Source: Streptomyces sp. H39-S7
GTDB lineage: Bacteria > Actinomycetota > Actinomycetes > Streptomycetales > Streptomycetaceae
Length of the DNA stretch: 64,000 bases
Direction: 5' to 3'
Assembly (NCBI RefSeq): GCF_027158205.1
Contig: NZ_JAPVLU010000005.1
Location: 63,251-127,250 of the forward strand
Each line of letters opens with the position of its first letter. Within the stretch, counting starts at the first letter, position 1. Below are positions 2,821 to 26,648 of this stretch, piece by piece. The position numbers were made by a program, and so were the translations under genes. Under the pieces are notes generated by a model, which was not told the DNA's origin, searched no databases, and saw only the letters and a list, made by a program, of their open reading frames with translations.

Positions 2821-2829
2821 GGAGTTCCC

Positions 2830-3822: not shown

Positions 3823-3828
3823 GGCGCC

Positions 3829-5061: not shown

Positions 5062-5064
5062 CCC

Positions 5065-6132: not shown

Positions 6133-6147
6133 TTAGGAGGGTGCCCT

Positions 6148-7759: not shown

Positions 7760-7761
7760 CC

Positions 7762-8337: not shown

Positions 8338-8978
8338 CATTCAGCAGCAGCACCCCAACCACGAGTGAATATTGGTCAGACCGCAACGCAATCACGGCGG
8401 ACGACATGAACAAAAACGTTCGAGACATCCATCGGTTCCTGGTCAACCCCCCAAGCTGCCGCCTTTCGGTGAAGCAGAACGGCAGCGCGACTTCCTACCA
8501 GACAACGGCTAGTGGCTGGTCCTCGTTCTACTTCGCCATGCCGAAGGCCGGCCAGAACCCCACTCGCGAATGGGACACCTCGGGCGGGCAGATGGCCACA
8601 GCCGACGCCAACGGGTTTGTCCGTGCTATCAAAGCCCCAACTGACGGTATATACGCCATCACTTTTTCCGGCATGTTCTACACCAAGACGGTCTCAGCAA
8701 ACAACAACTCACGCATCGGCAAGAACATCACCACCGATGCCAACTGGAACAACACCTACGGTCCATTTGCTGCGATGAGCCCGGTCAAAACCCCGCTGAC
8801 GACATCAAATCAATACGCCGTTTCGCACACCTCAATTGCCCGTCTCTGGAAGGACGATGGGGTGTCCGTAGGAGTTGCGAGCGACAACAGCCAATACACC
8901 GGTGATGCAACGACAAAGGGGTTCATCTCAATGACATGGATTGGAGGGATGACGAGTGACTATTACGCCAACGCCTGA
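8334..8978 (+). CDS. Tail appendage protein, paralogue B
   Basis: A 214-aa paralogue of the flanking genes. It shares the N-terminal motif MNKNVRDIHRFLVNPPS, the central KAPTDGIYAITFSG, and the C-terminal FISMTWIGG. The central part is Asn/Thr/Ser-rich, typical of exposed beta structures. It starts on an ATGA overlap with the previous gene and overlaps the GTG start of the next by 23 bases. Two neighbouring genes with the same plan suggest either hetero-oligomeric tips or alternative receptor binders. Confidence 0.65.
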   Translation: MTFSSSTPTTSEYWSDRNAITADDMNKNVRDIHRFLVNPPSCRLSVKQNGSATSYQTTASGWSSFYFAMPKAGQNPTREWDTSGGQMATADANGFVRAIKAPTDGIYAITFSGMFYTKTVSANNNSRIGKNITTDANWNNTYGPFAAMSPVKTPLTTSNQYAVSHTSIARLWKDDGVSVGVASDNSQYTGDATTKGFISMTWIGGMTSDYYANA

Positions 8979-9567
8979 GACCTGGGCTCACCGCGAGCTG
9001 GTGACCGCAGCAACGATGAACCGTCGAGTCCGGGACGTACACGCCTTCCTGGCCAAGTCCCCCGCTGCCATTCGTGTCGAGGGGTTCTCCCGTACCAACC
9101 TGCCTGCTGGGACACCCGCGCTCTGCTACTACACGCCCGTCGGCGCCTCCGCTCACTCCTACGCATCGAACCCGAGCATGGCCATAGTGGGCGGCCCTTC
9201 CGGCACGTTCCTAGATGGCGTGAAGGCCCCCGTAGACGGTCGGTACAAGCTCTCCATCGGCGGCGCGGTCACGGCCGTGACCGCCCAGGCCGCTGCCCGC
9301 GTGTGCTATCTCCAGGCGGCCGTCAACGCGGCTGCAACAGATACGGCGGTCGGGGTCGGCGCCTTCCTCACCTTCCCCCTTACCAACTTGAGCACCACCG
9401 TCCACCAGGGCGCCATGTCCACCGAAGTTGTTTTGCGCACGGCGGACACCGTCCGTGTCGCGTGCCGTATGGATGGTTCGGCCTACAACTGGGCCAGTGG
9501 AAGCGACGCCGGTTTCACACAAGGCTCATTCATTGAGCTGCGCTGGATTGGCGAGGTACCCACGTGA
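8956..9567 (+). CDS. Tail appendage protein, paralogue C
   Basis: A 203-aa protein with a GTG start chosen because GGAGGGA lies 6 bases upstream and the N-terminus (TPETWAHRELVTAATMNRRV) aligns with paralogue B. It shares VRDVHAFLAKSP, KAPVDGRYKLSIGG and the closing SFIELRWIGE. The centre differs most among the three copies, as expected if the variable region contacts a receptor. The last codons overlap the next gene (GTGA). Confidence 0.65.
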   Translation: MTITPTPETWAHRELVTAATMNRRVRDVHAFLAKSPAAIRVEGFSRTNLPAGTPALCYYTPVGASAHSYASNPSMAIVGGPSGTFLDGVKAPVDGRYKLSIGGAVTAVTAQAAARVCYLQAAVNAAATDTAVGVGAFLTFPLTNLSTTVHQGAMSTEVVLRTADTVRVACRMDGSAYNWASGSDAGFTQGSFIELRWIGEVPT

Positions 9568-9824
9568 GTCCAATAACCGTTTTCGAATATGCAGGTACGG
9601 CGGCCTCGGTAGTGGCCGCCTTTGTCATGTTGAGGGCCGCATGGTCCATCAACACCGCACAGGTCTGGAAGGAAGAGGCAGCAGCCCAAAAGGCACGCGC
9701 CGACCGCCTCCAAGAGGACATGCGGGAGATCAAGGAACGTCTCACCCGGATTGAAGTCGAGAACATGCGGCTGATTGAACTGCTTACCGCACTCGATCCG
9801 AACCGACTAAGGAGCAACATATGA
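9564..9824 (+). CDS. Small membrane protein with coiled coil (DUF2746-like)
   Basis: An 86-aa protein starting on a GTGA overlap. One transmembrane helix (about residues 8-28) is followed by a charged coiled coil (about 33-75: EEAAAQKARADRLQEDMREI, then KERLTRIEVENMRLIELL). This arrangement is common just before the endolysin in actinophages, where such proteins are annotated as DUF2746 or as accessory lysis proteins. A holin-accessory or spanin-like role is inferred from position only. Confidence 0.65.
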   Translation: MSPITVFEYAGTAASVVAAFVMLRAAWSINTAQVWKEEAAAQKARADRLQEDMREIKERLTRIEVENMRLIELLTALDPNRLRSNI

Positions 9825-10654
9825 CCATCAAGGGCATCGACGTAAGCAACTACCAGGCCGCCACCTGGTCCACGACCGGTCTTGACTTCGTCTTCATCAA
9901 GGCAACCGAGGGCCACACACTTACCGACTCTCGAATGACCGCTCACGCTCAGCGCGCCCGAGCTGCTGGGCTACAGGTGGGCTTCTACCACTTCCTATGG
10001 CCAGGCAACATCCAGGCTCAGGCCGAGTACTTCACGTCCAAGGCCGCAAGCGTTGCCGGTGACATCCTGGCGGTGGACTGGGAGACGAATTCCAGCGGCA
10101 CGCACGCAAGCAACGCGGAGAAGGACCAGTTCCTCAAGGCCGTGAAGAAGCTTCGCCCTACCCACAAGGTGATCCTCTACACCAACACGTCCGACTGGAA
10201 GTCTCGCGACAAGACCAACTTTGTTCAGGACGGCCTATGGATCGCGCAGTACAACGGGCACGCCGGCCACCCCGACATCAAGGCCCCTTGGCTTTTTCAC
10301 CAGTACGACGACAAGCCCCTGGATGAGGACGTGGCCGCATTCTCCAGCCGTGCGGCGCTCAAGTCCTGGGCAACCGCTCTGGTGCACCCTGCAACCCCGC
10401 CGACGTACGAGCCGTTCCCGGGCGCAAATTGGTTTACGACCGGGCGGAAGTCCCCGATTGTGCTTGCGATGCGTAAGCGCCTTATCGCGGTCGGCTGCAA
10501 TCGCTACAAGTCCAATGCCAACCCAGACGTGATCGGCGACGGCGACAAGGCTTCCTACGAAGCTTGGCAGCGGAAGTGCGGCTTTACCGGCAAGTCGGCC
10601 GAGTGGCCTCCCGGCAAGGCGACCTGGGACAAGCTCCAGGTCCCCAATGTCTAA
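9821..10654 (+). CDS. Endolysin: GH25 muramidase with peptidoglycan-binding C-terminus
   Basis: A 277-aa lysin that should hydrolyse the MurNAc-GlcNAc bond at the end of the lytic cycle. The GH25 fold spans about residues 3-190. It has the opening GIDVSNYQ, the strand FVFIKATEG, the GFYHFL segment, and the acidic pair in AVDWE (D86/E88) that fits the GH25 active site. Residues about 200-275 (a segment ending AYEAWQRKCGFTG-like) resemble a short peptidoglycan-binding domain. There is no signal peptide, so export would rely on a holin such as the gene just downstream. The ATG overlaps the previous stop (ATGA). Confidence 0.92.
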   Translation: MTIKGIDVSNYQAATWSTTGLDFVFIKATEGHTLTDSRMTAHAQRARAAGLQVGFYHFLWPGNIQAQAEYFTSKAASVAGDILAVDWETNSSGTHASNAEKDQFLKAVKKLRPTHKVILYTNTSDWKSRDKTNFVQDGLWIAQYNGHAGHPDIKAPWLFHQYDDKPLDEDVAAFSSRAALKSWATALVHPATPPTYEPFPGANWFTTGRKSPIVLAMRKRLIAVGCNRYKSNANPDVIGDGDKASYEAWQRKCGFTGKSAEWPPGKATWDKLQVPNV

Positions 10655-10676
10655 TCTCGACTCTCAAGGAGTTCGT

Positions 10677-10898
10677 ATGAACCCAGTCATGAAGTTCCTC
10701 AAGGCGCACGGCGTGCGCGTGTTTGCTGTCCTCGCGGCGGCGGTACCCCTTCTAGTGATTCAGTTCCCTGACTTCCCGGCGGAAGCGTTCCTAGCTCTGG
10801 CGGCTGCAACCCTCGGTGTAGGTGAGGTGGCTCAGCGGAACGAGCAGGCGAAGCAGGATGAGGCCCTGGCCACTCCCGTACCGTTCGACAACTCCTGA
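10677..10898 (+). CDS. Holin-like small membrane protein
   Basis: A 73-aa protein with the start placed at 10,677 by a CAAGGAG ribosome site 5-6 bases upstream; a longer in-frame start at 10,647 overlaps the lysin gene and lacks a good site. Two hydrophobic segments (about residues 13-30 and 35-52, rich in Ala/Val/Leu) are followed by a polar acidic tail (QRNEQAKQDEALATPV). Size, topology and position after the endolysin fit a phage holin, but holins are too diverse for sequence alone to prove it. Confidence 0.7.
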   Translation: MNPVMKFLKAHGVRVFAVLAAAVPLLVIQFPDFPAEAFLALAAATLGVGEVAQRNEQAKQDEALATPVPFDNS

Positions 10899-10935
10899 GG
10901 CATGAGCGACATCCCAGTGAGTGAATGAAATAATG

Positions 10936-10953
10936 TCCATGACAATTCATGGA
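10936..10953. repeat. Perfect inverted repeat TCCATGA-N4-TCATGGA
   Basis: Seven-base perfect arms around CAAT lie between the last late gene and the terminator. It could be a protein-binding dyad or part of the transcript end structure. No gene starts here on either strand. Confidence 0.5.
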
Positions 10954-10961
10954 TGCAAAGA

Positions 10962-11008
10962 AAGGCCCCCGGCCTCTCCTGTGCGGAGAGAACCGGGGGC
11001 CTTCTTTT
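10962..11008. terminator. Strong bidirectional terminator between late and early operons
   Basis: The stem AAGGCCCCCGG pairs perfectly with CCGGGGGCCTT, with a second inner stem CTCTCC/GGAGAG. CTTTT follows on the plus strand, and the reverse side has CTTTCTTT. It sits exactly between the rightward lysis genes and the leftward gene ending at 11,031, so it can stop both transcripts. Confidence 0.9.
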
Positions 11009-11030
11009 GCGTTGCAGCACACCTTCGTTT

Positions 11031-11675
11031 TCATTCCACCATTGTGAATACTTTGCCTACTTCGGTGCGTAGCCCTGACTTCGTTGTCACATAAATCTTG
11101 AGTGTGTACTGACCTTCATGTATTCCGACCCCGCTCCAACCTTGCTCGACCGTAGCACAATTGTTGGGAGGAGATGCAGCATTCAAGTCCGAGCCATCGG
11201 GACCTACCAGCGTGTATCGAATTGTGCAATCAGCCGCATTTTCAACCCTGGAGCCACGAAGGTAGACCTGATACTGCCACCTCACTTCGGAACGGTAGGT
11301 ATCTCCGTCGACGCGGCCCTTCGGCATCATAATAAGGGTAAGCCGCAAAGGGTCAGAGGTTTGCGAGGGTCTAGCGACCGGTGGTGGCACGGAATTGCTT
11401 GAAGGTTTTGACTCTGATTCGCTCGAAGTCCACAGCTCGGGGAGGGACGTCTTCCCCGTGACCCAAGCAATCAGCGTGATCACTGTCACGACAAACGACA
11501 GAACGCCCGCTGTCGCCTTGGCTGCTCCAAGTGCAAGCCTCACCCGCTGCTCTCTAACCTCACGGGCTTGTGCTAGGCGTCGTGCTGCGATCTGCCTCGC
11601 CATGGCCCGGCCCTGGGGCGTCTCGGATGCAGCACGCCGTGCGTCGCGCCTGAACTCGGACACTTCGCCCCCCAC
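11031..11675 (-). CDS. Single-pass membrane protein of unknown function, last gene of the early operon
   Basis: A 214-aa protein with a basic cytoplasmic N-terminus (residues 1-48, many Arg/Ala), one transmembrane helix (about 52-72: a run of Val/Leu/Ile ending IAWVTGK), a Ser/Pro linker and an exported domain of about 110 residues with two cysteines (ADC and NNC) that could form a disulfide. The domain has a beta-sandwich-like pattern (RLTLIMMPKG, RWQYQVYLRG, YTLKIYV). The GTG at 11,675 is used; GTG at 11,663 also has a purine-rich site. Surface exclusion or superinfection immunity is possible by position in a prophage but is not shown by any motif. Confidence 0.6.
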   Translation of the reverse strand: MGGEVSEFRRDARRAASETPQGRAMARQIAARRLAQAREVREQRVRLALGAAKATAGVLSFVVTVITLIAWVTGKTSLPELWTSSESESKPSSNSVPPPVARPSQTSDPLRLTLIMMPKGRVDGDTYRSEVRWQYQVYLRGSRVENAADCTIRYTLVGPDGSDLNAASPPNNCATVEQGWSGVGIHEGQYTLKIYVTTKSGLRTEVGKVFTMVE

Positions 11676-11891
11676 CCTCGCCCTGACTCAAGAGACTAGA
11701 GGAGTACCTGATGTGGCGATGTGCTTACAGCTGCCTTGTTGTCGGAGAGGAATGCTTCCGCCCTCTTCTCGCGACCGCCGACACCGAAACCGAGGTCTCG
11801 TCCCACGTCCCCGAGTTCCAGCGTGCGACCAGGACTGAGTACCGCCCCTGAACGAACCTCGGCTGACGCGTCAGAGGCATGCTGGCCGGAC

Positions 11892-13361
11892 TCACGCCTT
11901 CACCCCATGGCTGTAGCTCTCGACGCGACGCTGCCACCAGGCCCGCGCTGCTGCCGTGTTGGCGTTCTCCGCCATATACAACGTGTTCTCCGGCACTCGA
12001 CCGACCATCTTCACAGGCTCCGGAGCCAGGATGTCAGCAGTAGGTGTGGTGGAGTGCTTGTCACCGTCTCCGGGGTGCGCCATCTCGAATGCAACCTGCA
12101 CCTTGGCAGGCACCCTTCCTCGGTCTGAGACCTGGTACCCGTTGGACCGCGCCCACTCGCGTACGTCAGGCAGCTCCGGCGCGGCCTGGCGCTCCGGCTT
12201 GGCCTGGTTCTCGTAGTGGTTGGCAGGCATGGCCGCCCACCAGATCCGAGACTGAAGTCGGTGTGTGGCTACCAGTTCACGCGTCTCCAGGTCGCACAGC
12301 GCGTACTCTCCGTCCCTCGTGTATCCGAGCGAGACCTTCCGGGCCTGGCTCGGGCCGGGACTGTTCTTCCCGCCCTTGCCCCCATACACGATCACGGCAC
12401 TGCTGACCGTGTCCCGCAGCTCGGTGTTCTTCCACTCCAGCCCGCTCGGCTCTGTGGTCAGCACTTGGACTGATCCCGTCTCGCCTGCCTGGCCGGGCTC
12501 TTCCTCGACCGGAGCGGGCTTCCACCAAACTCGGCCGGCCAGCGCGCACGTGTGCAGCAGGTCCCTGGATTCGGCCACCCATACTTCGTACTTACCATCC
12601 CCCGCGTACGTGACCCCAGCCAGCGTACTGATGGACGGCTCAGCCGACCGCTTCCCACCCTTGCCGCCGAACATGATGCGGATGTCGTGGTTTCCGGATC
12701 GAACACCCGGAACGTTCCCAAGCGGCTCATTCCTCCACTCGTCGCGGACCTCGACCAGCTCGACCAAGCCGGAGTCAGCAAAGATGGTGACCCACGTACT
12801 CCGCGCCGTGGCTTCCTCGCCAGGCATACCGACCGACACCCGAACCGCGGATGTCGGAGTCCCGTTCCTCTGTGCCTTCACGCTCTTGGGCTCGGCCAAC
12901 AGGACACCTGTCCGCTTCACCGAGTGGCCTCGGGTGTCCACGCCGATTGCGTCGACCGAGGCCCCGACTGCGAACCCGTTCACAAGCTCCAGCAGATTGG
13001 CCATGGCGTCTATCTCCGTCCAGTTAGGTGAGAGGGAATGGGCCTTGCGGTCAAGGTTTTCGATCACTGAGCAGAGGTCTTTAGCGATGAGGCGTTCTCC
13101 GCAAACATCGCAGTCGCAGTCATGACCGACACAGACACCACAGTTGGCTTCGTCGCAAAGCCGGTCGGGCCCGTGCCCGTCTCCCCGGGTGTAGCTGAAC
13201 GGATAGAGAACGTGCTCTCGCTCGTAGCGGTGGCCGTGGCAGCGCTCGTACTCCGGGCATGGCTCGGCGGAGCGCCGGACCGACTCCTTCGTCAGGAAAG
13301 CGGCCCGGCACAACGTGCACTGAAAGCGGCCCGAGACGTGCTCTCTCAGGGTGTGCTTCAC
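11892..13361 (-). CDS. Multi-domain protein: Cys/His-rich N-terminus, two GGKGGK repeats, Lsr2-type DNA-binding C-terminus
   Basis: A 489-aa protein starting with GTG immediately after the stop of the upstream helicase-like gene. Residues 10-95 contain CTLC, CPEYERC and CGVCVGHDCDCDVCGE pairs, likely zinc sites. Two 60-residue copies of a unit beginning with GGKGGK and ending RxWWxxxP lie near residues 230-290 and 320-380. Residues about 400-435 (VREWARSNGYQVSDRGRVP) match the Lsr2 C-terminal AT-hook-like domain that reads AT-rich minor groove. A short tail ends ARAWWQRRVESY. The combination suggests a phage DNA-bridging or silencing factor; the repeats are not a family I recognise. Confidence 0.7.
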   Translation of the reverse strand: MKHTLREHVSGRFQCTLCRAAFLTKESVRRSAEPCPEYERCHGHRYEREHVLYPFSYTRGDGHGPDRLCDEANCGVCVGHDCDCDVCGERLIAKDLCSVIENLDRKAHSLSPNWTEIDAMANLLELVNGFAVGASVDAIGVDTRGHSVKRTGVLLAEPKSVKAQRNGTPTSAVRVSVGMPGEEATARSTWVTIFADSGLVELVEVRDEWRNEPLGNVPGVRSGNHDIRIMFGGKGGKRSAEPSISTLAGVTYAGDGKYEVWVAESRDLLHTCALAGRVWWKPAPVEEEPGQAGETGSVQVLTTEPSGLEWKNTELRDTVSSAVIVYGGKGGKNSPGPSQARKVSLGYTRDGEYALCDLETRELVATHRLQSRIWWAAMPANHYENQAKPERQAAPELPDVREWARSNGYQVSDRGRVPAKVQVAFEMAHPGDGDKHSTTPTADILAPEPVKMVGRVPENTLYMAENANTAAARAWWQRRVESYSHGVKA

Positions 13362-14780
13362 CTACAGCTCCAGTAGGTGAGCGAGCGGGTTAGCGGCAGG
13401 CACGGCCGCCGCCTTCTTTGCCGGCCGGGCTCGCTTGGGGGCCGGCGCCGGCCTGGTCTCCGAGGTGACGACCGACAGACGAGCGGGGGCAGCCTTTCGG
13501 GGCCTGGCTCGCTTGGGCTTGGCCTCTTGCGCCTGGTGCTCGTGGACCTCGGGCGCCGGGGCCTCCGTCTTGGGCTCGACCTCGGGCTTGTTCAGGCGGT
13601 ACATGATGGAAGGGGCGCCCCGACCGCCGGACTGTGCCTTGTACGTCTCTACGTCGGGCATCTCCTCTACCGACGCCTTGAGGGCAGCCGCGTTGACCCT
13701 GGTTCCAAGCGACCGGAGAAGCATGGTCGATGACGCCTCACCTCCGAGGAAACCCAGCTTCTCCCTGATGAGGTCAGGCAGGGACTTGGCCACCCGCGCG
13801 GTACTTGTCTCGGCCTCGTTGACCAACTTCTCGACGCTGACCATGGAGTACGCGACAAACGCCCAAGCTGCCTCAAGGGCCTTCTTGGTGATGACCGTCT
13901 TACGCTCGGCCGCCGTAAGGACGGCGGCGACCCTGACCACCTGTTCGGCTGACCGCTCCAGGAAGCAGGACAGCCGCTCGGGCATGTCCGCCATCCGGTC
14001 TTCTATCTCGGACCGCAACTCGTCGTACCGCCGCCCGGCCTCGGGGGCGAACGACAGGTACCGCGTTTCCTGCTGGCTCCACCTGTAGGCCGCGGTGAGT
14101 GCCTTGGTTTCCTTCACCGTGGCCACGTGGTCATACGGCAAGAGCTTGGATCGCTCGACCACCACGGGGAGTATGCGGTTGTAGCTACCGCCGAGTGCGT
14201 CAGCCGTCGAACCCGCAACGTACTTCGACCACTCCCCCGGCGTGATGTGCGCGTGAAAGCCCAACAGCGGAGACGTGACGTACTGCGTCTCTTTCTTGGT
14301 GGTGTTGCTGATCGGCTTGCCGTCCCAAGCGGTCCGGAGCTGCTGACTGAAATTGGCGTCGCGCTTGGAGCGTCGGAGCTGTGCCGCCCACTCCTCCTCA
14401 ACGATGAGTGTCCGACCGTCCGTGCCGGTCTCGCTCCCGGCCGTCTCCATCTCCTGTTGCCACATCATGTTGACCAGGGACGGACCGGACGAGATACCCG
14501 AGTAGGTGTGGGTGTCGATGAACGCTCCGATACTCGGATTGAGTATGCGACGCGCCGTGTTGAGCGCGTAGCCCTTCCGACCGAGAGCGCTCTTGCCCGC
14601 AAGGACCGTCCAGACGACCACAGGCCGGCCGGAGTCCATCAGGACCCGACCCCCCAGGGAGGCCGAGAACAACGCCAGTGTGGCCGCGTAGATACCGATC
14701 GGGTCGGCTTCCGAACCGGGCGCCGCCTTAGCCACAGCGTCGCCGATCGGCCCGTATTTCATCGCGTTGAAAGTGCTCAT
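13362..14780 (-). CDS. DUF3987-like replication or helicase-type protein
   Basis: A 472-aa protein typical of actinophage and integrative-element replication modules. The N-terminus (GDAVAKAAPGSEADPIGIYA) and an unusual P-loop-like segment LAGKSALGRKG, followed by TLIVEEEW as a Walker-B-like strand, fit the DUF3987 family, often linked to primase-helicase functions. Residues 230-330 are helical, then a winged-helix-like region (IREKLGFLGGEASSTMLLRS). The last 80 residues are a Lys/Ala/Pro-rich tail, probably disordered and DNA-binding. The ATG overlaps the stop of the preceding small gene (ATGA). Helicase activity is inferred, not shown. Confidence 0.78.
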   Translation of the reverse strand: MSTFNAMKYGPIGDAVAKAAPGSEADPIGIYAATLALFSASLGGRVLMDSGRPVVVWTVLAGKSALGRKGYALNTARRILNPSIGAFIDTHTYSGISSGPSLVNMMWQQEMETAGSETGTDGRTLIVEEEWAAQLRRSKRDANFSQQLRTAWDGKPISNTTKKETQYVTSPLLGFHAHITPGEWSKYVAGSTADALGGSYNRILPVVVERSKLLPYDHVATVKETKALTAAYRWSQQETRYLSFAPEAGRRYDELRSEIEDRMADMPERLSCFLERSAEQVVRVAAVLTAAERKTVITKKALEAAWAFVAYSMVSVEKLVNEAETSTARVAKSLPDLIREKLGFLGGEASSTMLLRSLGTRVNAAALKASVEEMPDVETYKAQSGGRGAPSIMYRLNKPEVEPKTEAPAPEVHEHQAQEAKPKRARPRKAAPARLSVVTSETRPAPAPKRARPAKKAAAVPAANPLAHLLEL

Positions 14781-14968
14781 GCTGCGTTCTCCTTTGCGGC
14801 CTTGAACAAGTCGCGGAAGTAGTCACGGAACTTGTCCGCGTGCTTCTCGCACAAGTCGTACTGATCCGGACCGATGGTCATCACGACCGTGGCCGGTTCG
14901 TCGTTGGCTCCGCCTGCCTGATGCGCATCACAGGTGACCGTCTCCACCTGGACCACCGTTCTTGCCAT
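14777..14968 (-). CDS. Small Cys/His protein resembling the Lsr2 dimerisation domain
   Basis: A 63-aa protein. The ATG at 14,968 is preferred over the longer frame because GGAGGAGAA lies 4-5 bases upstream. The pattern ARTVVQVE, then PATVVMTIGPDQYDLCEKHA, then DKFRDYFRDLFKAA follows the beta-beta-helix of the Lsr2 N-terminal dimerisation domain, with an added C-H and C-H pair that could bind zinc. It is translationally coupled to the DUF3987 gene and lies two genes before the protein with an Lsr2 C-terminal domain. A split two-component Lsr2-like system is inferred. Confidence 0.6.
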   Translation of the reverse strand: MARTVVQVETVTCDAHQAGGANDEPATVVMTIGPDQYDLCEKHADKFRDYFRDLFKAAKENAA

Positions 14969-15000
14969 GCGTTCTCCTCCATTGCGAGCGTCCATAGCAA

Positions 15001-15024
15001 AGGCCCGGCCGACAGGCCGGGCCT
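15001..15024 (-). terminator. Intergenic GC hairpin (early operon)
   Basis: AGGCCCGGCC pairs perfectly with GGCCGGGCCT around a 4-base loop. It lies between the 43-aa gene ending at 15,052 and the Lsr2-N-like gene. It is one of several similar hairpins that separate genes of this operon. It lacks a clear U tract, so attenuator or RNA-processing site are both possible. Confidence 0.6.
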
Positions 15025-15051
15025 CACTAAAGCCACTCGTCAGCGCGCTGA

Positions 15052-15183
15052 TTACCTGCCGTAGGCTCCAGCCCGTATTGGCCGCAAGGGGTCGCTCCAG
15101 AGCGTGAGAGGCGGGTAGGTGACCGTTCCTCGGGCACGCGCCGTACGTATGCGTGCAGCCCTGACCGTGTATCGCGTGTTCAT
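15052..15183 (-). CDS. Small basic protein (43 aa) of the early operon
   Basis: A short ORF with a perfect GGAGG seven bases before its ATG. It begins on an ATGA overlap with the stop of the upstream gene, so it is almost certainly translated. The sequence is Arg-rich (YTVRAARIRTARARG) with a net positive charge and no Cys. It has no recognised family. A longer ORF in the same frame that reaches 15,468 has no ribosome site and runs through other genes. Confidence 0.55.
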   Translation of the reverse strand: MNTRYTVRAARIRTARARGTVTYPPLTLWSDPLRPIRAGAYGR

Positions 15184-15371
15184 CCCCGCGCCTCCTTCAA
15201 CGTCATGAACTCGCTGGGGTGTTCGGGCGTCGCCCAAGCGGAAGCGCATCCCGAGCACGTCACATGCCAGAGATGAGGCTCCAGAACGCGCCTGGTGAAA
15301 ACCAGCGTTACCGGCTCGCTCCAACCCATGCACTCCATGCCCTCCCGCGTAATTACCTCGGGTTCCGTCAT
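15180..15371 (-). CDS. Small phage protein with one CxxC pair (63 aa)
   Basis: A small ORF in an unbroken ATGA-linked chain with its neighbours, which is strong evidence for translation. It contains VTCSGCASAW, a possible half zinc knuckle, and several Trp/His residues. Its C-terminus ends TLKEARG. No family is recognised; an early accessory role is likely from context only. Confidence 0.55.
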   Translation of the reverse strand: MTEPEVITREGMECMGWSEPVTLVFTRRVLEPHLWHVTCSGCASAWATPEHPSEFMTLKEARG

Positions 15372-15556
15372 TCTGATACCTCAATCTCCTCAACTCGGGG
15401 GGACATGAAATCCACTTCGGGGCGGCCGAGTCGGTTGTGTTGCATCCATGCCATGTGCGCAACCACACGGGGCCGGTGCGGGATAGCTCCCCCGACCTCG
15501 TAGGACCAGGTCGTTTCGGTGTCTTCCTCGGTGAACGTCACCAGCCAAGTCACCAT
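15368..15556 (-). CDS. Small acidic phage protein (62 aa)
   Basis: The ATG shares its first base with the preceding stop codon and its own stop overlaps the next start, so it belongs to the coupled early operon. The opening WLVTFTEEDTETTWSYEVGG suggests a two-stranded beta start, then a helix containing VVAHMAWMQHNR, and an acidic end. No known family. Confidence 0.55.
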   Translation of the reverse strand: MVTWLVTFTEEDTETTWSYEVGGAIPHRPRVVAHMAWMQHNRLGRPEVDFMSPRVEEIEVSE

Positions 15557-15804
15557 CAGACCCCCGCCTCTACCGGGAACGCACGGGCCACCAGACGGGC
15601 TGCGTAGAAAGCGTCCGTAGCCTTGCCGACTAGCAAACGGGCAACCGCCATTGGATCGGCGTATGCAGTCGCCATGTCGCCGCAGTCCCTGAACAGGTTC
15701 CTAAGGGCGTCGAACCGCTCGGTGTCATCGGCAATCCACCCGAGGACCGAAGCACGGTCCTGGATGTCGTCAGAATCCTGCATGAAACGCATGGTAAGAC
15801 TCAC
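15556..15804 (-). CDS. Small helical phage protein (82 aa)
   Basis: The GTG at 15,804 is selected because it overlaps the upstream stop (GTGA), like other junctions in this operon; the longer version reaching 15,897 runs inside the neighbouring gene. The protein is helical and acidic, with DIQDRASVLGWIADD and DALRNLFRDCGDMATAY. No motif is recognisable, and function is unknown. Confidence 0.55.
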   Translation of the reverse strand: MSLTMRFMQDSDDIQDRASVLGWIADDTERFDALRNLFRDCGDMATAYADPMAVARLLVGKATDAFYAARLVARAFPVEAGV

Positions 15805-16139
15805 AGTGTTATCCCCATCGCTTGCTGGTAACCGCTCCACACAACAGCCGCTATCCGGCCGCGCGTTCCTACCGTGAAACTGTTGGCCCGCCCCCACTCC
15901 CGGGCCTTACGCATGTGCTCCTTGTGCTCCCACGCTGCCGTTTGGGCCGCTTGGGCACGTTCCCAGCACTCCTCTTGTTCCCGCCGTATTTCTGTCTCTC
16001 GTACTTCCCGTGCGTCGTCACGGTGCTTGTAAACGAGGAAGAAGCGGACTTCCGGAGGCGTAACCGCTGAATGGTCGTCCGGCTGCCTCATATCCTTGGC
16101 GACCATGTAGGCCCTGACCGCTTCCGGGTCGGGTTCCAT
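15801..16139 (-). CDS. Small protein with coiled coil and Lsr2-like C-terminal motif
   Basis: A 112-aa protein with AGGAGGG five bases before the ATG at 16,139. The middle (about residues 45-80) is a charged helix (REVRETEIRREQEECWERAQ), and the end (REWGRANSFTVGTRGRIAAV) closely follows the Lsr2 DNA-binding helix pattern REWAR-NGY-V-RGRI. The arginine-glycine-arginine core needed for minor-groove contact is present as TRGRI. It is the third Lsr2-related gene in this operon. DNA binding is inferred. Confidence 0.6.
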   Translation of the reverse strand: MEPDPEAVRAYMVAKDMRQPDDHSAVTPPEVRFFLVYKHRDDAREVRETEIRREQEECWERAQAAQTAAWEHKEHMRKAREWGRANSFTVGTRGRIAAVVWSGYQQAMGITL

Positions 16140-16168
16140 GTGCCCTCCTGACCTAGTGACCAAGGAAA

Positions 16169-16213
16169 GGGCCCGACCGACCGCCAGGGGTCACCCCCAG
16201 GCCGGCCGGGCCC
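16169..16213 (-). terminator. Intergenic GC hairpin (early operon)
   Basis: GGGCCCG pairs with CGGGCCC, enclosing a second GGGG-TCA-CCCC stem. It is preceded on the plus strand by CCAAGGAAAGGGCCCG, close to the conserved edge seen at 17,201 and 17,799. It lies between two early genes. Confidence 0.6.
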
Positions 16214-16224
16214 CACCCAAGCGA

Positions 16225-16545
16225 CTAGCCGAGTGGCTGCTTAGTGGGCTGCGCGTTGAACAACGCTGACCACTGGTGGTGAAGCATCTGCCGTAGCAGA
16301 GCCCTACCGGACTTCGTCATGACCGTTGGGTTTAGCGCCCGCTCATGGAAAATGCGGACTACCCGCCGCGCAAGTGCATCCAGTTCTCCCCTGTCGGCGA
16401 GAGCTGCACAGTCAGCGCAGGCGTTCCAGTGCCCGTCGTCCAACTGCTCTATCTGGCCCCCGCCTCCTTGGAGCGGAGGGAGGAAGCCGAGCGGGATCAC
16501 GTAAACCCATACCGGGTCATCGGCTGAGCAGAAGTCGCAGAGCAT
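16225..16545 (-). CDS. Small Cys-rich protein with two zinc-like pairs
   Basis: A 106-aa protein with AAAGG seven bases before the ATG. It starts MLCDFCSADDP and later has NACADCAALADRGE, giving two CxxC pairs that can form a zinc ribbon. The C-terminal half is helical and basic (LARRVVRIFHERAL). Such proteins are frequent in actinophage early regions with no assigned function. Confidence 0.6.
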   Translation of the reverse strand: MLCDFCSADDPVWVYVIPLGFLPPLQGGGGQIEQLDDGHWNACADCAALADRGELDALARRVVRIFHERALNPTVMTKSGRALLRQMLHHQWSALFNAQPTKQPLG

Positions 16546-16567
16546 ACGGAGCCTTTCTGCCGCTAGA

Positions 16568-17140
16568 TCAGGCGCTGTAGTTCAGGACGTGCCAGACTCC
16601 GGCGCCCTCGTAGAGGGCTCCGTAATCGCCACCGCACATCCAGTCGTTCGCCATACTGCGAGCGATGGCCATTTGATGTGCCTGGTATTGCTGAGGCAGG
16701 TCATCGGATTCTGAGATGTAGTCGTAGGCGACGTTCGCCACTGCTTCTCGTTCGTCCACTTCATCCGTGACCGTCGTAACGAATTGGTCTTCAATTAGCG
16801 CAACGACATCGGCCGCGTCCATCTTTGGGTTGTCCGTGAAGTAATGCGCGACAACAACCGCCGGAAACTTGGACAAGGCTTCTGCGATGTCGTGCAGTCG
16901 CTCGAACGACTCCCACTCGCCGAGTTCCAGCTCTCCCGGGAATCCGTCGTAGTCGTGGATCGCGTACTCTTCCGCTACCTCACCGAACTTTCCGGTAACC
17001 GGAGAGGTTGCAAGCATCGCGGCCACTTCCGCATAGATTTGGTCGGGCTCCTGGTCGGCATCTATCCACGCGCCGTGTAGTACTCCGTTGTTGTAGTCAG
17101 ACAGGCTTGCCACGTAGATACGCGGGGTGTCCTGGGACAT
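16568..17140 (-). CDS. ardA: Antirestriction protein ArdA
   Basis: A 190-aa acidic protein that should protect incoming phage DNA by mimicking B-form DNA and occupying type I restriction-modification enzymes. The ATG at 17,140 follows AGGGAGA by 5-6 bases; the extra upstream residues of the longer frame lack family similarity. Diagnostic elements are RIYVASLSDYNNGVLHG, WIDADQEPDQIYAEV, EEYAIHDYDGFPGELELGEW and a long Asp/Glu-rich remainder. It lies in the early operon, as expected for a gene needed soon after entry. The family call is firm; activity against a given restriction system is inferred. Confidence 0.9.
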   Translation of the reverse strand: MSQDTPRIYVASLSDYNNGVLHGAWIDADQEPDQIYAEVAAMLATSPVTGKFGEVAEEYAIHDYDGFPGELELGEWESFERLHDIAEALSKFPAVVVAHYFTDNPKMDAADVVALIEDQFVTTVTDEVDEREAVANVAYDYISESDDLPQQYQAHQMAIARSMANDWMCGGDYGALYEGAGVWHVLNYSA

Positions 17141-17209
17141 CGCTCTCCCTTGGTTGAACCGGCATTTGATCCGCCCGAGGACGGCATTGGCCTTGACTGG
17201 CCATGGAAA

Positions 17210-17229
17210 AGGGCCCGATCCCGGGCCCT
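17210..17229 (-). terminator. Intergenic GC hairpin before ardA
   Basis: AGGGCCCG pairs perfectly with CGGGCCCT around four bases. It is preceded on the plus strand by CCATGGAAA, a sequence edge repeated at 17,799-17,807. It lies between the stop of the 70-aa gene and the ardA ribosome site. Confidence 0.6.
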
Positions 17230-17242
17230 CGACCAAAGCAAG

Positions 17243-21594: not shown

Positions 21595-22932
21595 TCAGGC
21601 TGCCACGTTGACACCTGTAGCTCTGGCCCGCTCGAACAGTGCCTTCACATGAGCGTTTTTCGCATGAGGAGAGAGGCGGGCAACCATGATCCTCATCTTC
21701 TCGTCGCATCGTCCCGACTGGACCAACGGGTAGTCGTCCAGGGCTCGGTCCCAAGACGCGCAGGCTGCTTCAAGGTGTCCGATGTCGAGCTGACGTTCAG
21801 CGGCCAGGCTGTTGTGCCGCACTCGGGTGCGCCGGTAGTGCGGGTAGGCAAGTTGGGTGGACTCCTGCATGGCTTTAACGGCTCCGGCACTGTCCTTCAG
21901 CTCATGCCGCACCTGTGAGAGGTGGTACATCAGTGCAGCAGGGTCATAGGACCCGAAGGCTTTGGACTGCGACTCGGCTACCTCCATCGCCTTCTCGGCC
22001 TCGCTCATGTAACGCAGGGCCTCAGCAGCGTTTCCGAGCTGCGCCGCGGAATGTGCTTGCTGTCCTGCCAGGAAGGCCCGCATCCGAGGGCCCGCCTGAG
22101 GCGAGGCGGCTGCCGCCGCGTCTGCAAGTCTCATGGCGTGACGCCCGTGCCCAAGGTCAACGGCTTGGACGGACATGCCTCGGAGCGTTGTGCAGTAAGT
22201 CAGGTGGTCTTCAGCGGCTCCGGCCAGTTCTAGGGCCTTGAGGTAGTAACGCTGAGCCAGGCCGTGAACTCCTTCGTCCACTGCCATGTATCCCGTGAGG
22301 TAGCAAAGATCCGCAGCGGCGGACATCATCGCCATGCGAACGTGCTCGGGAGCCTCGGCGTTCAGGTAGCCGGCCACGGTGTTCACCAAGAACGCGGCAG
22401 CCATGGGGCGGGCGTGCCGACCGCCGAACTGGTCGTCCAGGTCGCTGACGCGCTCCGTCATCTGCTGAACCATGTCGACCTCGCCCATACCGATACGGAT
22501 GGTCTTGCCGGCCGCGAAGGCTTCCGCTCGGCCCACTACGTCTGGCCAGTCCGGGATGGTCAAGGCAACAGAGAACAGAGCAGCGCCCAGGACACTTCTA
22601 CGGGACGGGTCCATGTCTTGCCTCCCCAGGTCGATCAGACCTTCAACCGTACCTGGGAAGGTAAGGGCAGGTCCGAGGGCGGGGAAGCCAGCCTCTTCGT
22701 GGGTCACGGGCCGGAAGAGCTTGCGTGACAGGGCCTCAATGATCGCCGCGCGGGCTTCCTTGCGCGGAGTGGTGCCGCTCAACCAGTGGGACACGGTGGA
22801 GTGGTCGTACTTGGTCGGTGTGCCCAGTTCCGACCCGACGCGGTTCACTTCCATGGCGAACCGCGCGTGCTTCATGTCTGCCTCGTAGAGCAGCCCCGTA
22901 AGACGCTCGTTCGGTCGCTTCTCCTGAGTCAC
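21595..22932 (-). CDS. XRE-family regulator with TPR domain
   Basis: A 445-aa protein of a type abundant in Streptomyces. The GTG at 22,932 has GGGAG six bases upstream and gives a start just before the HTH region; longer frames lack homology. Residues 1-80 carry the HTH (ERLTGLLYEADM through STVSHWLSGTTPRKE), then a DPSRRSVLGAALFSVAL segment, then TPR-like helices to the end (for example GLAQRYYLKALELAGAAEDH and AAERQLDIGHLEAACASWDR). Divergent to a HATPase gene 141 bases away, a recurrent pairing. The likely role is a ligand- or peptide-responsive regulator; the target is unknown. It may be host or element DNA. Confidence 0.82.
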   Translation of the reverse strand: MTQEKRPNERLTGLLYEADMKHARFAMEVNRVGSELGTPTKYDHSTVSHWLSGTTPRKEARAAIIEALSRKLFRPVTHEEAGFPALGPALTFPGTVEGLIDLGRQDMDPSRRSVLGAALFSVALTIPDWPDVVGRAEAFAAGKTIRIGMGEVDMVQQMTERVSDLDDQFGGRHARPMAAAFLVNTVAGYLNAEAPEHVRMAMMSAAADLCYLTGYMAVDEGVHGLAQRYYLKALELAGAAEDHLTYCTTLRGMSVQAVDLGHGRHAMRLADAAAAASPQAGPRMRAFLAGQQAHSAAQLGNAAEALRYMSEAEKAMEVAESQSKAFGSYDPAALMYHLSQVRHELKDSAGAVKAMQESTQLAYPHYRRTRVRHNSLAAERQLDIGHLEAACASWDRALDDYPLVQSGRCDEKMRIMVARLSPHAKNAHVKALFERARATGVNVAA

Positions 22933-23072
22933 AGCCAACTCCCGCGAACTTTCACGTGATTCACGCTCTCGCACTGCACACACCGTACCGCTCTGCGTGT
23001 TCATGCGGTTGCTTAGTGCGTAGCAGCAGACGCGGGGCCTTGGGCTCCACAACCACGTTGGGAGGTGCAGCG

Positions 23073-23579
23073 ATGGCCGCGGGGGGACAGTTCTTTCAGA
23101 GCAGGCTCGACCTAGCGTGCGAACCCACCGCTGTCCACTTCGCCCGGAGTCACACCGAGGACGTTCTACAGAAGTGGCAGATGCCTGCGGAGGTGTCCTT
23201 TGACGCGGCGGTCGTCGTCGTTGAGCTGACGAGCAACGCGGTACGCCATGCCGGCCAGGACGCCATACCGTTCAAGCAGGACCAGGGTCAGCCGCCCGTC
23301 CCTCAGTGCACCCTGTCTTTGTGGGTGACGAACACCCGGTTACACATTGGGGTGTGGGATCAGAGTTTGCGGCGTCCGGCTCTTCAGCCGATCTCCTATG
23401 ACGCTGAGGGGGGCCGTGGTCTGCAAGTGGTGGCCGGCTTGTCTGAAGGACAGTGGGGCGCTGCTCCGACCCAGCCCAGGGGGAAGATCGTCTGGGCTGC
23501 TCTGCCCTTGCCTGCCGAGTACCGCCGTCGGCTGTCCTACATCAGCTCGTTATCCCGCCCTCAGGCGGTGAGCGCATGA
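23073..23579 (+). CDS. ATP-binding protein, HATPase (anti-sigma/RsbW-like) family
   Basis: A 168-aa single-domain GHKL ATPase; GGAGG seven bases before the ATG fixes the start. The N-box lies in VVVELTSNAVRHAGQ, and the ATP-lid region includes LHIGVWDQS and YDAEGGRGLQVVAGLSEGQW (G1/G2-like). Proteins of this size act as anti-sigma factors or as accessory ATPases of XRE-type regulators in Streptomyces. It is divergent from the TPR-XRE gene and overlaps the next ORF (ATGA), so the three form a regulatory unit. Confidence 0.8.
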   Translation: MAAGGQFFQSRLDLACEPTAVHFARSHTEDVLQKWQMPAEVSFDAAVVVVELTSNAVRHAGQDAIPFKQDQGQPPVPQCTLSLWVTNTRLHIGVWDQSLRRPALQPISYDAEGGRGLQVVAGLSEGQWGAAPTQPRGKIVWAALPLPAEYRRRLSYISSLSRPQAVSA

Positions 23580-23950
23580 CGACGTACGCCCCTTCCATAG
23601 GTGTTGCATGCATTGAATCCAGGACCTTGTTCCGGCTGGGGGAAGCTCTACGTTCGAGCCTGAGCGAGGACATCCTTGATGACCTCGAAGAGGTGTTAGG
23701 TGAGGACGCTGTGCTGACGGCACAAGGCGCCAAGGCGCTTGCTAGCCAGTTGCATGCATCACTTCGCAGGATGTTGTGTTTCGTATCCCCAAGTCCTTCG
23801 CAAGTTCACTTCACCCGTGCCCTGCTGTTCGAGCGATGTCCCGCTGACGAGTTTGACGCTGTGAGCTACGTGCGTCGGCTGGCTGTGGCTGTGCTTGACC
23901 TAGCAGATGAAGCAGCTAAAACCGCTGTTCCCTCCCAGCCACCGCCGTAG
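23576..23950 (+). CDS. Small Streptomyces-type protein of unknown function
   Basis: A 124-aa protein starting on an ATGA overlap with the HATPase gene, so it is probably co-translated with it. It is helical and acidic (SLSEDILDDLEEVLGED, then AKALASQLHASLRRMLCFV), with a Pro-rich end. No domain is recognised. Tight coupling suggests that it works with the ATPase or the divergent regulator. Confidence 0.6.
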   Translation: MTTYAPSIGVACIESRTLFRLGEALRSSLSEDILDDLEEVLGEDAVLTAQGAKALASQLHASLRRMLCFVSPSPSQVHFTRALLFERCPADEFDAVSYVRRLAVAVLDLADEAAKTAVPSQPPP

Positions 23951-24802: not shown

Positions 24803-24979
24803 ATGCCCGTGAAGACCGTGGTGCCGACCACCGAACCGGCCATCTCCGATGACACCCTCAGCGACCTGGTTGCCGCCATCAAGGGCGACCCGACCGCTGT
24901 CGTGTCCGGCGTGAAGGCGCGCGTGGCCGCGTCCCAGAGTGACGCGAACAACTGCATGATGGGCGGCTGGACCGCCTGA
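24803..24979 (+). CDS. RiPP precursor-like peptide (58 aa)
   Basis: A small ORF with GGAAGAGG seven bases before the ATG. Residues 1-45 look like a leader: polar and acidic around SDDTLSDLVAAIKGDPTAVV, helix-forming, with the SGVKARVAASQ stretch before the end. The C-terminal tail SDANNCMMGGWTA looks like a core with one Cys, two Met, two Gly and one Trp. It is followed by a perfect hairpin and then by an alphaKG-HExxH-type hydroxylase-like gene, the usual precursor-hairpin-enzyme layout. The core matches no RiPP class I know. That it is modified is inferred from layout only. Confidence 0.6.
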   Translation: MPVKTVVPTTEPAISDDTLSDLVAAIKGDPTAVVSGVKARVAASQSDANNCMMGGWTA

Positions 24980-25010
24980 TCCGCAGCCTGACGCGCTGAC
25001 TCTCAAGTGC

Positions 25011-25036
25011 GCCCGGGGCGGGTACCCGCCCCGGGC
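25011..25036 (+). terminator. Perfect hairpin between precursor-like gene and hydroxylase gene
   Basis: GCCCGGGGCGGG pairs with CCCGCCCCGGGC over 12 bp with only TA between the arms. No U tract follows. Such attenuating hairpins commonly raise precursor over enzyme expression in RiPP operons. The next ORF has its own AAGGAGG site. Confidence 0.75.
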
Positions 25037-25070
25037 GTGCGCCAGGCTACATACAAGGAGGACACTCCTC

Positions 25071-25952
25071 GTGCACTTCATGAACCTCGGCCACAGCTAC
25101 GAGAACACCGCGCGGATGGTCACCGCGCTGAGCAACGAATTCCCCACGGCAGAGGATCTGCCCGTCGCGTACAGGAAGGCGATCAGCACCCTTCGCCCTC
25201 TGCCGGCCCACTACGACGAAGACAAGAACAACAACTACGCCGCCATCACGTTCGAGGACGGTGATTGGTCGGACTACTGCCTGAACCACGGCATCTTCGC
25301 CCACATTTTCGACGGTGCCACGCCGAGCGACGCGGTCACGCGTGACCGCTGGAAGGCGAACATCGCGTCGGCGCTCCGTTACCTCCAGGAGATGAGTCCG
25401 GGCCTCTACCGCATGGTCCGGTTGCTGGTGACGGACATCGTGGTCCTGAACTCGGGAGCGGATGGAGGCGGCTCGGCTTCCCAGATGCCCGGCGTCGTGG
25501 TCATGAGCCCCGGGCCCAAGTGGGAGGTGCCGCAGTACACCGAGTGCCTGACGCATGAGGCGATGCACCTCAACCTGTTCGTCGCGGACACGGTGTACGG
25601 CACGTTCACCCTGCCGTCCGTCGAGTTGGAGGCCGACGAGCACCGCGCTCTGTCGGCTGTCAAGATCGGCCAGCGGAGGCCGCTGGACAAGGCGTTTCAC
25701 GCGGCGGCCGTGACGGTCCCACTGATGTACCTGCAACACCAGCGCGGCACCACAACCCTGATCGACCTTTACACGGAGTCGCTGCGCGACGCGTGCGCGG
25801 ACCTCGCCACCCACCGGGAGGTCTTCACCGAGTACGGCGCGATGCTTCTGGACGAGCTGTGCGGCTTCGCGGCCAGCATCGACTTCGCGCACGTGGCCCA
25901 GACAATTACTGACCCCACGTACGCGGGGTACCGGCCGGCGGTGGCCGCCTAG
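25071..25952 (+). CDS. alphaKG-HExxH-type peptide beta-hydroxylase-like protein
   Basis: A 293-aa protein with GTG start nine bases after AAGGAGG (a second in-frame ATG lies at 25,080). HEAMH at residues 162-166 begins a motif series that follows the alphaKG-HExxH family (formerly HEXXH-motif peptide-modification domain): HExxH, then about 36 residues later RRPL, then a helix with a third His (KAFHAAAVTVPLMYL, H210). Metal-dependent secreted proteases also have HExxH, but there is no signal peptide and the downstream pattern fits the iron/2-oxoglutarate enzymes better. Known members hydroxylate side chains of RiPP precursors. The neighbouring 58-aa peptide is the obvious candidate substrate. 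The reaction itself is inferred. Confidence 0.7.
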   Translation: MHFMNLGHSYENTARMVTALSNEFPTAEDLPVAYRKAISTLRPLPAHYDEDKNNNYAAITFEDGDWSDYCLNHGIFAHIFDGATPSDAVTRDRWKANIASALRYLQEMSPGLYRMVRLLVTDIVVLNSGADGGGSASQMPGVVVMSPGPKWEVPQYTECLTHEAMHLNLFVADTVYGTFTLPSVELEADEHRALSAVKIGQRRPLDKAFHAAAVTVPLMYLQHQRGTTTLIDLYTESLRDACADLATHREVFTEYGAMLLDELCGFAASIDFAHVAQTITDPTYAGYRPAVAA

Positions 25953-25964
25953 GCGGTCATCCCG

Positions 25965-26648
25965 CTACTCGAAGTTGATACCCACCTCACGTGCCAGGCT
26001 CAGGGCCAGTTCCATCGACCCTGGGCCTTGCACCGTTGCGCCTTTGAAATGTGCCACCCCGCCCACGTCGAGCAGCGTTGAGTTTTCGAATCGCACTGTG
26101 CCCATCTTCACGTTGCCGAACTGAGCGCCAGTAAGGTCGCAGTTCACGAAGCGCACGTTGTGCAGCTCGGAGAACTGGAAGTCCACCCCGATCATTCGGC
26201 AATCCATGAAGGCCACGGCGTAGATTTTTGAGTTTCGGAACATGGCTGGAGCGCTGACGCAGTTTTCAAAGGTCACGTCCCGAAACGTGCTGGCCTTCCA
26301 CGATGAACCAGTCATGCGACTGCCGGTCACACGGCAACGCAAGAGGGACACGTCCTGGGCGCTGACCTCGGCGAAGTCGCATGTGTCGAAGTGCGCGTCA
26401 CTGATCTGAGTCTGTCGCAACCGGGTACCGGTGAACCGCAGGTTGCCGAAGTAGCATCCTTCTGCCTCCAGGGCCTCGACATCCCGCCCAATCAGATGTT
26501 CGCCGTCGTAACGAACGTTGCGAATGACCGCGTCATCCGCAAAGTCGTCCCGGGACATCTCCGCGTCCCGCAAGTTTGCAGGAAGACGCGGAGCCTCTGG
26601 GTTTTTGACTCGGCTGATTTTACTGCCTTGTTGAGCAAGTCGGGGCAT
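25965..26648 (-). CDS. Pentapeptide-repeat protein
   Basis: A 227-aa protein whose residues about 45-205 follow the five-residue period with Phe/Leu at the centre (for example CYFGNLRFTGTRLRQTQISD and FRNSKIYAVAFMDCRMIGVD). This gives a right-handed quadrilateral beta helix, here about 30 coils-worth of pentapeptides. Some members (Qnr, MfpA) mimic DNA and protect gyrase; others have no known role. It is convergent with the hydroxylase gene, 12 bases between stops, so a link to the RiPP-like locus is uncertain. The ribosome site is weak; an internal start is possible. Confidence 0.8.
   Translation of the reverse strand: MPRLAQQGSKISRVKNPEAPRLPANLRDAEMSRDDFADDAVIRNVRYDGEHLIGRDVEALEAEGCYFGNLRFTGTRLRQTQISDAHFDTCDFAEVSAQDVSLLRCRVTGSRMTGSSWKASTFRDVTFENCVSAPAMFRNSKIYAVAFMDCRMIGVDFQFSELHNVRFVNCDLTGAQFGNVKMGTVRFENSTLLDVGGVAHFKGATVQGPGSMELALSLAREVGINFE

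Follow-up and report, generated by a model that had tools for sequence, protein, structure and literature searches.

A putative minimal RiPP cassette in Streptomyces joins an MMGGWT peptide, an HExxH-type oxygenase and a convergent pentapeptide-repeat protein

The 64,000-nucleotide stretch of the Streptomyces sp. H39-S7 genome analysed here (contig NZ_JAPVLU010000005.1, positions 63,251 to 127,250; hereafter the window) contains a compact cassette in which a gene for a 58-residue peptide is followed by a hairpin, then by a gene for a 293-residue HExxH-type enzyme and finally by a convergent gene for a pentapeptide-repeat protein (PRP). On balance, we favour reading it as a minimal three-gene cassette for a ribosomally synthesized and post-translationally modified peptide (RiPP), with an antibacterial product, the PRP as self-protection and gyrase as a possible target. 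The three genes keep their order while the flanking DNA mostly differs, in members of two actinomycete orders and next to phage genes. The original prediction for this DNA described a system of two genes, for the peptide and the enzyme; the convergent PRP gene, which belongs to the cassette and is kept at related loci, had been missed, as had the phage genes upstream.

The enzyme gene (25071..25952, forward strand) starts with a GTG at 25071 preceded by AAGGAGG and encodes 293 residues up to a stop codon ending at 25952. The HEAMH, RRPL and KAFHAA motifs pointed out in the original prediction are all there (HEAMH ... RRPLDKAFH), and the proposed assignment to the alpha-ketoglutarate (alphaKG)-HExxH family stands up to a profile check, with 75 bits against a cut-off of 40 for NCBIfam TIGR04267 (aKG-HExxH-type peptide beta-hydroxylase). 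Pfam yielded no match at E ≤ 1, and the sole chain found at E ≤ 1 when the enzyme profile was searched against PDB sequences is unrelated (E of 0.94). Homologues amount to 131 proteins at E ≤ 0.001, the window's own included, and those with names among the 120 matches listed come mostly from Streptomyces. All 25 aligned enzyme sequences, including that of the window, match TIGR04267 at E ≤ 0.001 and share invariant H159, E160, H163, R200, P201 and H207 (numbering of P0001, which starts at residue 4 of the 293), i.e. the residues of the HExxH/RRPL...H signature; an RRPLD..FH block is common to several other TIGR04267 members. The AlphaFold2 model of the enzyme has a mean predicted local distance difference test score (pLDDT) of 92. 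Judged by its family, the protein is probably an Fe(II)/alphaKG peptide oxygenase. Two more TIGR04267 matches lie elsewhere in the same genome, outside the cassette (C73:101395-101925 and C11:49291-49851, in frames of 925 and 529 residues, respectively).

The peptide gene (24803..24979, forward strand) had been predicted together with its ribosome site, and both are confirmed: the ATG at 24803 has a purine-rich GGAAGAGG 7 nucleotides ahead of it, and the 58 codons, with a stop ending at 24979, finish in the tail SDANNCMMGGWTA. Since 14 homologues, the window's own included, were found by a one-sequence search and 216 proteins at E ≤ 1 by a profile search, the frame is not a chance one. Near its C-terminus lies the motif MMGGWT (residues 52–57, codons 24956..24973, forward strand), which is present in 117 of the 120 matches listed from these 216 and is MMGGWV or MMGGWA in the remaining three; the profile search favours proteins sharing short motif words, which biases this count and leaves the enzyme-anchored counts given below unaffected. 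In 20 aligned peptides the only invariant positions are Met1 and MMGGWT. Other peptides have Val, Ser, Gln, Ala or Thr where that of the window has the Cys before the motif, and the actinomycete peptides carry a variable tail of 0–8 residues after MMGGWT; that of Nocardia farcinica ends in DDNAAMMGGWT. It is the N-terminal part that drifts: codons that change the amino acid outnumber silent ones in 11 of 12 compared pairs (raw counts, not rates; 15 against five for the leaders of the window and L064), the exception being the pair L105/L106 (one against four). The proposal that the Cys/Met/Met/Gly/Gly/Trp tail is a variable core did not survive this check: instead of a conserved leader and a variable core, the peptide shows the reverse, a drifting leader and a fixed MMGGWT. 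RiPPs with fixed cores do exist.

A few peptides depart from this picture. At L108 (1054-1384) the leader is kept and MMGGWT is gone through a small deletion, the enzyme and the PRP being retained, and L075 (in G038, where the enzyme is all that is left) has a leader-like peptide without MMGGWT upstream of its enzyme. The Vibrio-named P0238 and the Endozoicomonas-named P0207 contain MMGGWT twice each, every copy in a similar stretch (ENRSMMGGWTIDR in P0238). The Vibrio peptide found no match among the plasmids or phages searched, and no peptide of the Vibrio/Endozoicomonas type was seen in 40 stretches from viral_contigs. Six of these 40 hold the actinomycete-type peptide; the other 34 were judged chance, and the two of them with a nearby HExxH string gave no enzyme match.

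The pairing of peptide and enzyme is strongly supported by its recurrence. The comparison covered 394 genomes of Streptomycetaceae, the family to which the window was assigned from named relatives; genomes and loci are labelled G and L, respectively. Enzyme matches occur in 20 genomes, 15 of them strong (E < 1e-90) and five weak or fragmentary. The latter (G105, G106, G173, G194 and G277) were left out of the counts, as were five of six plasmid records (Streptomyces sp. NBC_00690, three Staphylococcus and one Cytobacillus), a phage homologue and the weak matches G088 and G532, which come from a class-wide survey with the enzyme profile (matches in 4 of 394 genomes, the other two being already known); L001, L002 and L003 duplicate L064, L065 and L067, and each of these loci was counted once. 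An MMGGWT peptide lies upstream of the enzyme at 14 of the 15 strong loci, with G038 as the exception, which bears out the peptide–hairpin–enzyme layout and the co-occurrence that had been anticipated. A scan of the 394 genomes for DNA patterns encoding the motif matched 24: in 14 the match is the peptide, always upstream of the enzyme, and the frames of the other ten were judged not to be leader-like open reading frames (ORFs). The peptide is likewise present at five of the six enzyme loci from viral_contigs (the sixth is L108) and at the N. farcinica locus. Altogether it stands beside 20 of 22 enzyme-anchored loci (15 from genomes, six from viral_contigs and Nocardia), or 20 of 23 if NBC_00690 is counted, as would be expected of a small precursor gene constantly beside its modifying enzyme. 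The enzymes of these loci are 39–100% identical to that of the window, and only the pairs L070–L072 and L070–L073 are at least 88% alike among the 22. The weak matches hold an observation of another kind: at L078 (G106, 8400-10790) and L079 (G277, 8738-10264), distant HExxH proteins stand in tandem, with small upstream ORFs lacking MMGGWT.

The PRP gene (25965..26648, reverse strand; 227 residues) lies on the opposite strand, 12 bp past the enzyme stop codon. Of the 15 strong genome loci, 13 (the window's among them) have a PRP gene placed and oriented in this way, the others being 50–86% identical to the window's; it is also convergent at all six viral_contigs loci (51–64%), in Nocardia (36%) and at L147, a metagenomic contig found through the motif (51%). 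Every locus with a full-length enzyme and MMGGWT thus has it (20 of 20: 13 genomes, five viral_contigs, Nocardia and L147). The two genome loci without a PRP are G038 and G051; the latter has MMGGWT and an enzyme whose sequence diverges from the rest of the family past residue ~232, so that it is not an intact enzyme–peptide pair. Over 13 loci the pairwise distances of the three proteins are correlated (r of 0.85 for enzyme–PRP, 0.91 for enzyme–peptide and 0.81 for PRP–peptide; permutation p of 0.0002 each). The losses are one-sided. A search of the 394 genomes for the PRP gave 22 matches at E ≤ 1e-30, of which 13 lie beside a full-length enzyme in the cassette, three are incomplete (G162, G316 and G031, the last with an internal stop) and six are full-length without the motif or an intact enzyme. 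Two of these six stand beside enzyme remnants: in G105 the enzyme has a large internal loss, in G173 only its last 35 residues were matched, and no peptide was seen in either. The other four (G106, G119, G235 and G239) have neither enzyme nor motif in the stretch examined and neither a strong enzyme match nor the motif in the genome. An intact enzyme and peptide without the PRP was not seen in the 394 genomes. A PRP that persists without the biosynthetic genes, and not the reverse, is the pattern expected of an immunity gene.

The PRP matches Pfam PF13599 (96 bits) and PF00805. Its best solved relatives by one-sequence search are 2xt4 and 2xt2 (McbG-like protein), 2w7z, QnrB1 and MfpA; we take 2xt2/2xt4 to be AlbG and 2w7z to be an enterococcal Qnr. 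The AlphaFold2 model (pLDDT 87) is a beta-helix in regular coils with a C-terminal helix at residues 210–221, and together with the Pfam matches it shows the architecture of the topoisomerase-protecting PRPs, a pentapeptide-repeat beta-helix ending in a helix. We consider the PRP to be a candidate self-immunity protein with gyrase as a possible target.

Between the peptide and enzyme genes, the predicted perfect hairpin is found at 25010..25037 (forward strand), and none of 300 base-shuffles of the gap gives such a stem. RNA folding finds a long hairpin with differing arm sequences in the gap at 13 of 14 genome loci, G051 being without (the fold for L068 covers 130 bases, since the end of its gap went unrecognised). 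An uninterrupted stem of at least 12 pairs is present at 11 of 21 loci, a length reached by 0 of 300 base-shuffles at each; the remaining ten, Nocardia and L147 among them, have no perfect stem of at least 12 pairs. The natural reading is that the hairpin acts as an attenuator, so that more peptide than enzyme would be made.

The cassette itself sits at the right edge of what appears to be a prophage. Genes for phage tail proteins and an endolysin occupy 1-11 kb of the window (seven proteins of 1-20 kb were scanned), followed up to 17 kb by those for Lsr2-like, primase-like and anti-restriction proteins; the prophage-like region as a whole (10-17236) includes a tape measure protein and a minor tail/Dit protein. 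The GC content is 0.58–0.65 up to 28 kb and 0.67–0.76 past it, a step just right of the cassette, and a serine recombinase gene (C102:34213-34647) lies 29 kb before the window on the same contig. The phage genes, the GC step and the upstream recombinase together suggest the prophage-edge position; no attachment site came to light, although no search aimed at one was made. A tyrosine-integrase match is found at C102:22736, also on this contig. Searches with ARAGORN (window) and Rfam (20-30 kb) found nothing, and we dismissed tRNA-associated integration or a known RNA. Five of the six viral_contigs loci were scanned: L104, L105, L107 and L108 have phage genes near the cassette (portal, phage DNA polymerase, terminase or integrase), and the one scanned protein of L103 is a regulator. 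A chromosomal site is indicated for L074 by succinate dehydrogenase nearby and for L077 by exonuclease VII, and L068 looks chromosomal from a reading of its ORFs. The cassette is thus found in both phage and non-phage surroundings.

No other neighbour was seen to follow the cassette as the PRP does. When the ORFs round the 15 loci were clustered, only groups present at three to five loci were found beyond the enzyme and the PRP. ORFs upstream of the peptide in the window (21595-23950) encode an NsdA-family regulator, a HATPase and a DUF6415-like protein (the latter just below the cut-off), and relatives of the HATPase and DUF6415 ORFs recur 1.4–3.1 kb upstream at L064, L066 and L067. As parts of the system these three, a metallo-hydrolase-like gene and two ORFs of 66 and 118 residues were rejected, since most loci do not have them in the corresponding place. 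Only at L070, L072 and L073 do genes for an S9 peptidase and a POT-family transporter follow within a few kb downstream (scanned in L070); the enzymes of L072 and L073 are each 90–92% alike to that of L070, and the block is common to these related genomes. Both genes, with a two-component pair, were dismissed on account of this restricted recurrence. A known defence system was also dismissed, no PADLOC family being matched at E ≤ 0.01 by five proteins that include the enzyme, the peptide and the PRP.

We propose that the peptide is the substrate and that its N-terminal part docks on the enzyme, which would oxidise a residue in or next to MMGGWT, while the hairpin would limit read-through and keep the peptide in excess. 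The peptide may then be trimmed by housekeeping peptidases or by the enzyme itself through oxidative backbone cleavage, as PflC and PosC do at ARMD, a conserved C-terminal motif, with an amide as the resulting end (PMC12636437, PMC13060819; in the portions of these papers available). The fixed motif near the C-terminus and the lack of a common protease gene, as in the ARMD case, lead us to keep trimming plus hydroxylation by the enzyme as a possibility. The product would probably be antibacterial, and the convergent PRP would guard its target in the producing cell. Its homology and loss pattern make DNA gyrase/topoisomerase the most plausible target, by analogy with the microcin B17, albicidin and speirobactin clusters; the whole would move between genomes and prophages as a unit. 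A bolder version is offered tentatively: a new RiPP family that would span gammaproteobacteria as well as actinomycetes and their prophages, with a single HExxH oxygenase that modifies the peptide and oxidatively trims it at MMGGWT, a product that poisons gyrase and the PRP as dedicated immunity. Attack on, for example, a Gly alpha-carbon would leave a C-terminal amide, so that a protease gene would be unneeded, and the variable tail past MMGGWT fits with an end that is discarded.

Several observations weigh against the antibacterial cassette. The fixed motif and drifting leader reverse the usual RiPP pattern, and MMGGWT might be what the enzyme recognises, or mark a cleavage site, rather than form the product. 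No transporter or peptidase common to the loci emerged from the ORF clustering, the filter of which passed over some real genes, including that for the window's PRP. The enzyme of G038 is full-length although motif and PRP are both absent there, and the NBC_00690 plasmid homologue (38% identical) also lacks both, its peptide ending in ISTMGCGTE. Shared descent inflates Mantel values and could by itself give the correlations between the three proteins. The PRPs that stand alone in four genomes may be older than the cassette, and the one in G106 is weaker evidence because it lies at a contig end, where an enzyme would be off the contig. The PRP scores far under the cut-offs of its nearest curated families (47.8 bits for NF033086, cut-off 240; 24.5 for NF000349, MfpA, cut-off 360), so that it is, by these profiles, neither Qnr nor MfpA proper. 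Its profile search also returns IcmE, SV2C and designed repeat proteins, a generic matching of repeats. PRPs have many functions.

It is doubtful, in our view, that the peptide is a signal or regulator instead of an antibiotic, with the PRP binding the peptide's receptor and so deafening the producer, like HetL for PatS/HetR in Nostoc. A fixed short motif would suit the ligand of one receptor, HetL is a PRP conferring immunity to a peptide morphogen (PMC7476756, as far as its available text goes), the NCBIfam HetL profile weakly matches the PRP (23.2 bits, cut-off 260) and regulators of the NsdA and HATPase kinds lie upstream at some loci. These regulators are, however, not retained at most loci, orphan PRPs without the peptide make little sense for a self-signal, and the best solved relatives of the PRP by one-sequence search are gyrase-protecting or Qnr-like. 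The setting of the window, with its prophage-like 1-20 kb, the rise in GC to 0.74 at 28 kb and the serine recombinase on the contig, could instead suggest a prophage-linked toxin–antidote or exclusion unit, whose modified peptide would act inside the cell or on competing phages with the PRP as antidote. The phage genes at L104, L105, L107 and L108 and the lack of a common exporter agree with it; we find it unlikely given the chromosomal appearance of L074, L077 and, by ORF reading, L068, and the lack of any PADLOC model matching enzyme, peptide or PRP.

Two further alternatives were weighed. That peptide and enzyme form a RiPP pair and the PRP is an unrelated passenger would accord with the wide distribution of PRPs and with the four full-length relatives that stand alone; we consider it quite improbable, since 20 loci, mostly unlike in their flanks, drawn from two actinomycete orders and including some beside phage genes, all have the PRP in this convergent position, and its distances track those of the enzyme. 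HExxH is the classic zincin motif and PflC is proteolytic when the leader is missing (PMC12636437, in the text available), so that the enzyme might be a zinc peptidase that cleaves the small protein without oxidation. Its TIGR04267 score above the curated cut-off, the shared RRPLD..FH block and the iron/alphaKG oxygenase nature of the characterised members described in the available text (PMC12636437, PMC13060819) make this very unlikely.

If the antibacterial reading is right, the cassette would be an unusually small antibiotic-plus-immunity unit, made of one enzyme, one protector and a substrate of ~45–60 residues. Because the six-residue motif is fixed, the site on which the enzyme acts can be tested directly, and the PRP beside it hints at a molecular target ahead of any compound. 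The combination of MMGGWT, HExxH and a convergent PRP also provides a search handle for further members and for what other PRPs protect against.

Among known systems, PflC/PosC of Pseudomonas, ChlBH, BpmH and PesO belong to the same domain family as the window enzyme, and the residues hydroxylated by the characterised relatives are Asp, His, Phe, Gln and Pro (PMC12636437, PMC13060819; statements drawn from the available parts of these sources, as are those that follow). Like the cassette, pfl/pos has a stand-alone HExxH enzyme, a small precursor with a conserved C-terminal motif and no protease gene nearby (PMC12636437). Known aKG-HExxH clusters differ in having further enzymes (MNIO, radical SAM, GNAT or AS-like) and, in several cases, transporters; their precursor motifs also differ (poly-Gln-ARMD with an NHLP-type leader in pfl/pos, R(V/T)DN in pes), and the available text of PMC12636437 makes no mention of MMGGWT or a linked PRP for them. 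The Streptomyces sp. NBC_00690 plasmid (L110, 4772-7133) has a leader-like peptide upstream of its enzyme homologue; with RQxxH in place of HExxH and a radical SAM gene downstream, it is possibly a diverged sister system. Enzyme homologues of Bacillus phage SPbetaL1 (25%) and a Staphylococcus warneri plasmid (23%) have neither an MMGGW nor a PRP match in their 10.8-kb stretch. In the SPbeta-like phage SPbetaL1 (L111, 4720-5804) the HExxH homologue comes directly after a 66-residue ORF, a possible phage-borne RiPP pair.

On the side of the PRP, such proteins are self-resistance genes in the microcin B17, speirobactin, albicidin and cystobactamid clusters (PMC7136475, PMC12406682, PMC8837603). 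These compounds are gyrase poisons, and their biosynthetic genes are linked to a PRP (McbG for microcin B17, AlbG for albicidin), as in the cassette. Among them, microcin B17 is a RiPP with azoles and the rest are made by nonribosomal peptide synthetases, whereas the cassette has one HExxH enzyme and its loci showed no exporter in common. HetL, which protects the Nostoc heterocyst against the peptide signal that it makes itself, also gives immunity to an inhibitory peptide, and no HExxH enzyme is mentioned in the available text (PMC7476756). Our literature search, for which most subscription papers were out of reach, found no description of an MMGGWT/HExxH/PRP cassette. The kind of enzyme and self-resistance by a PRP are both already known; what appears to be new is that they come together around a peptide with a fixed MMGGWT.

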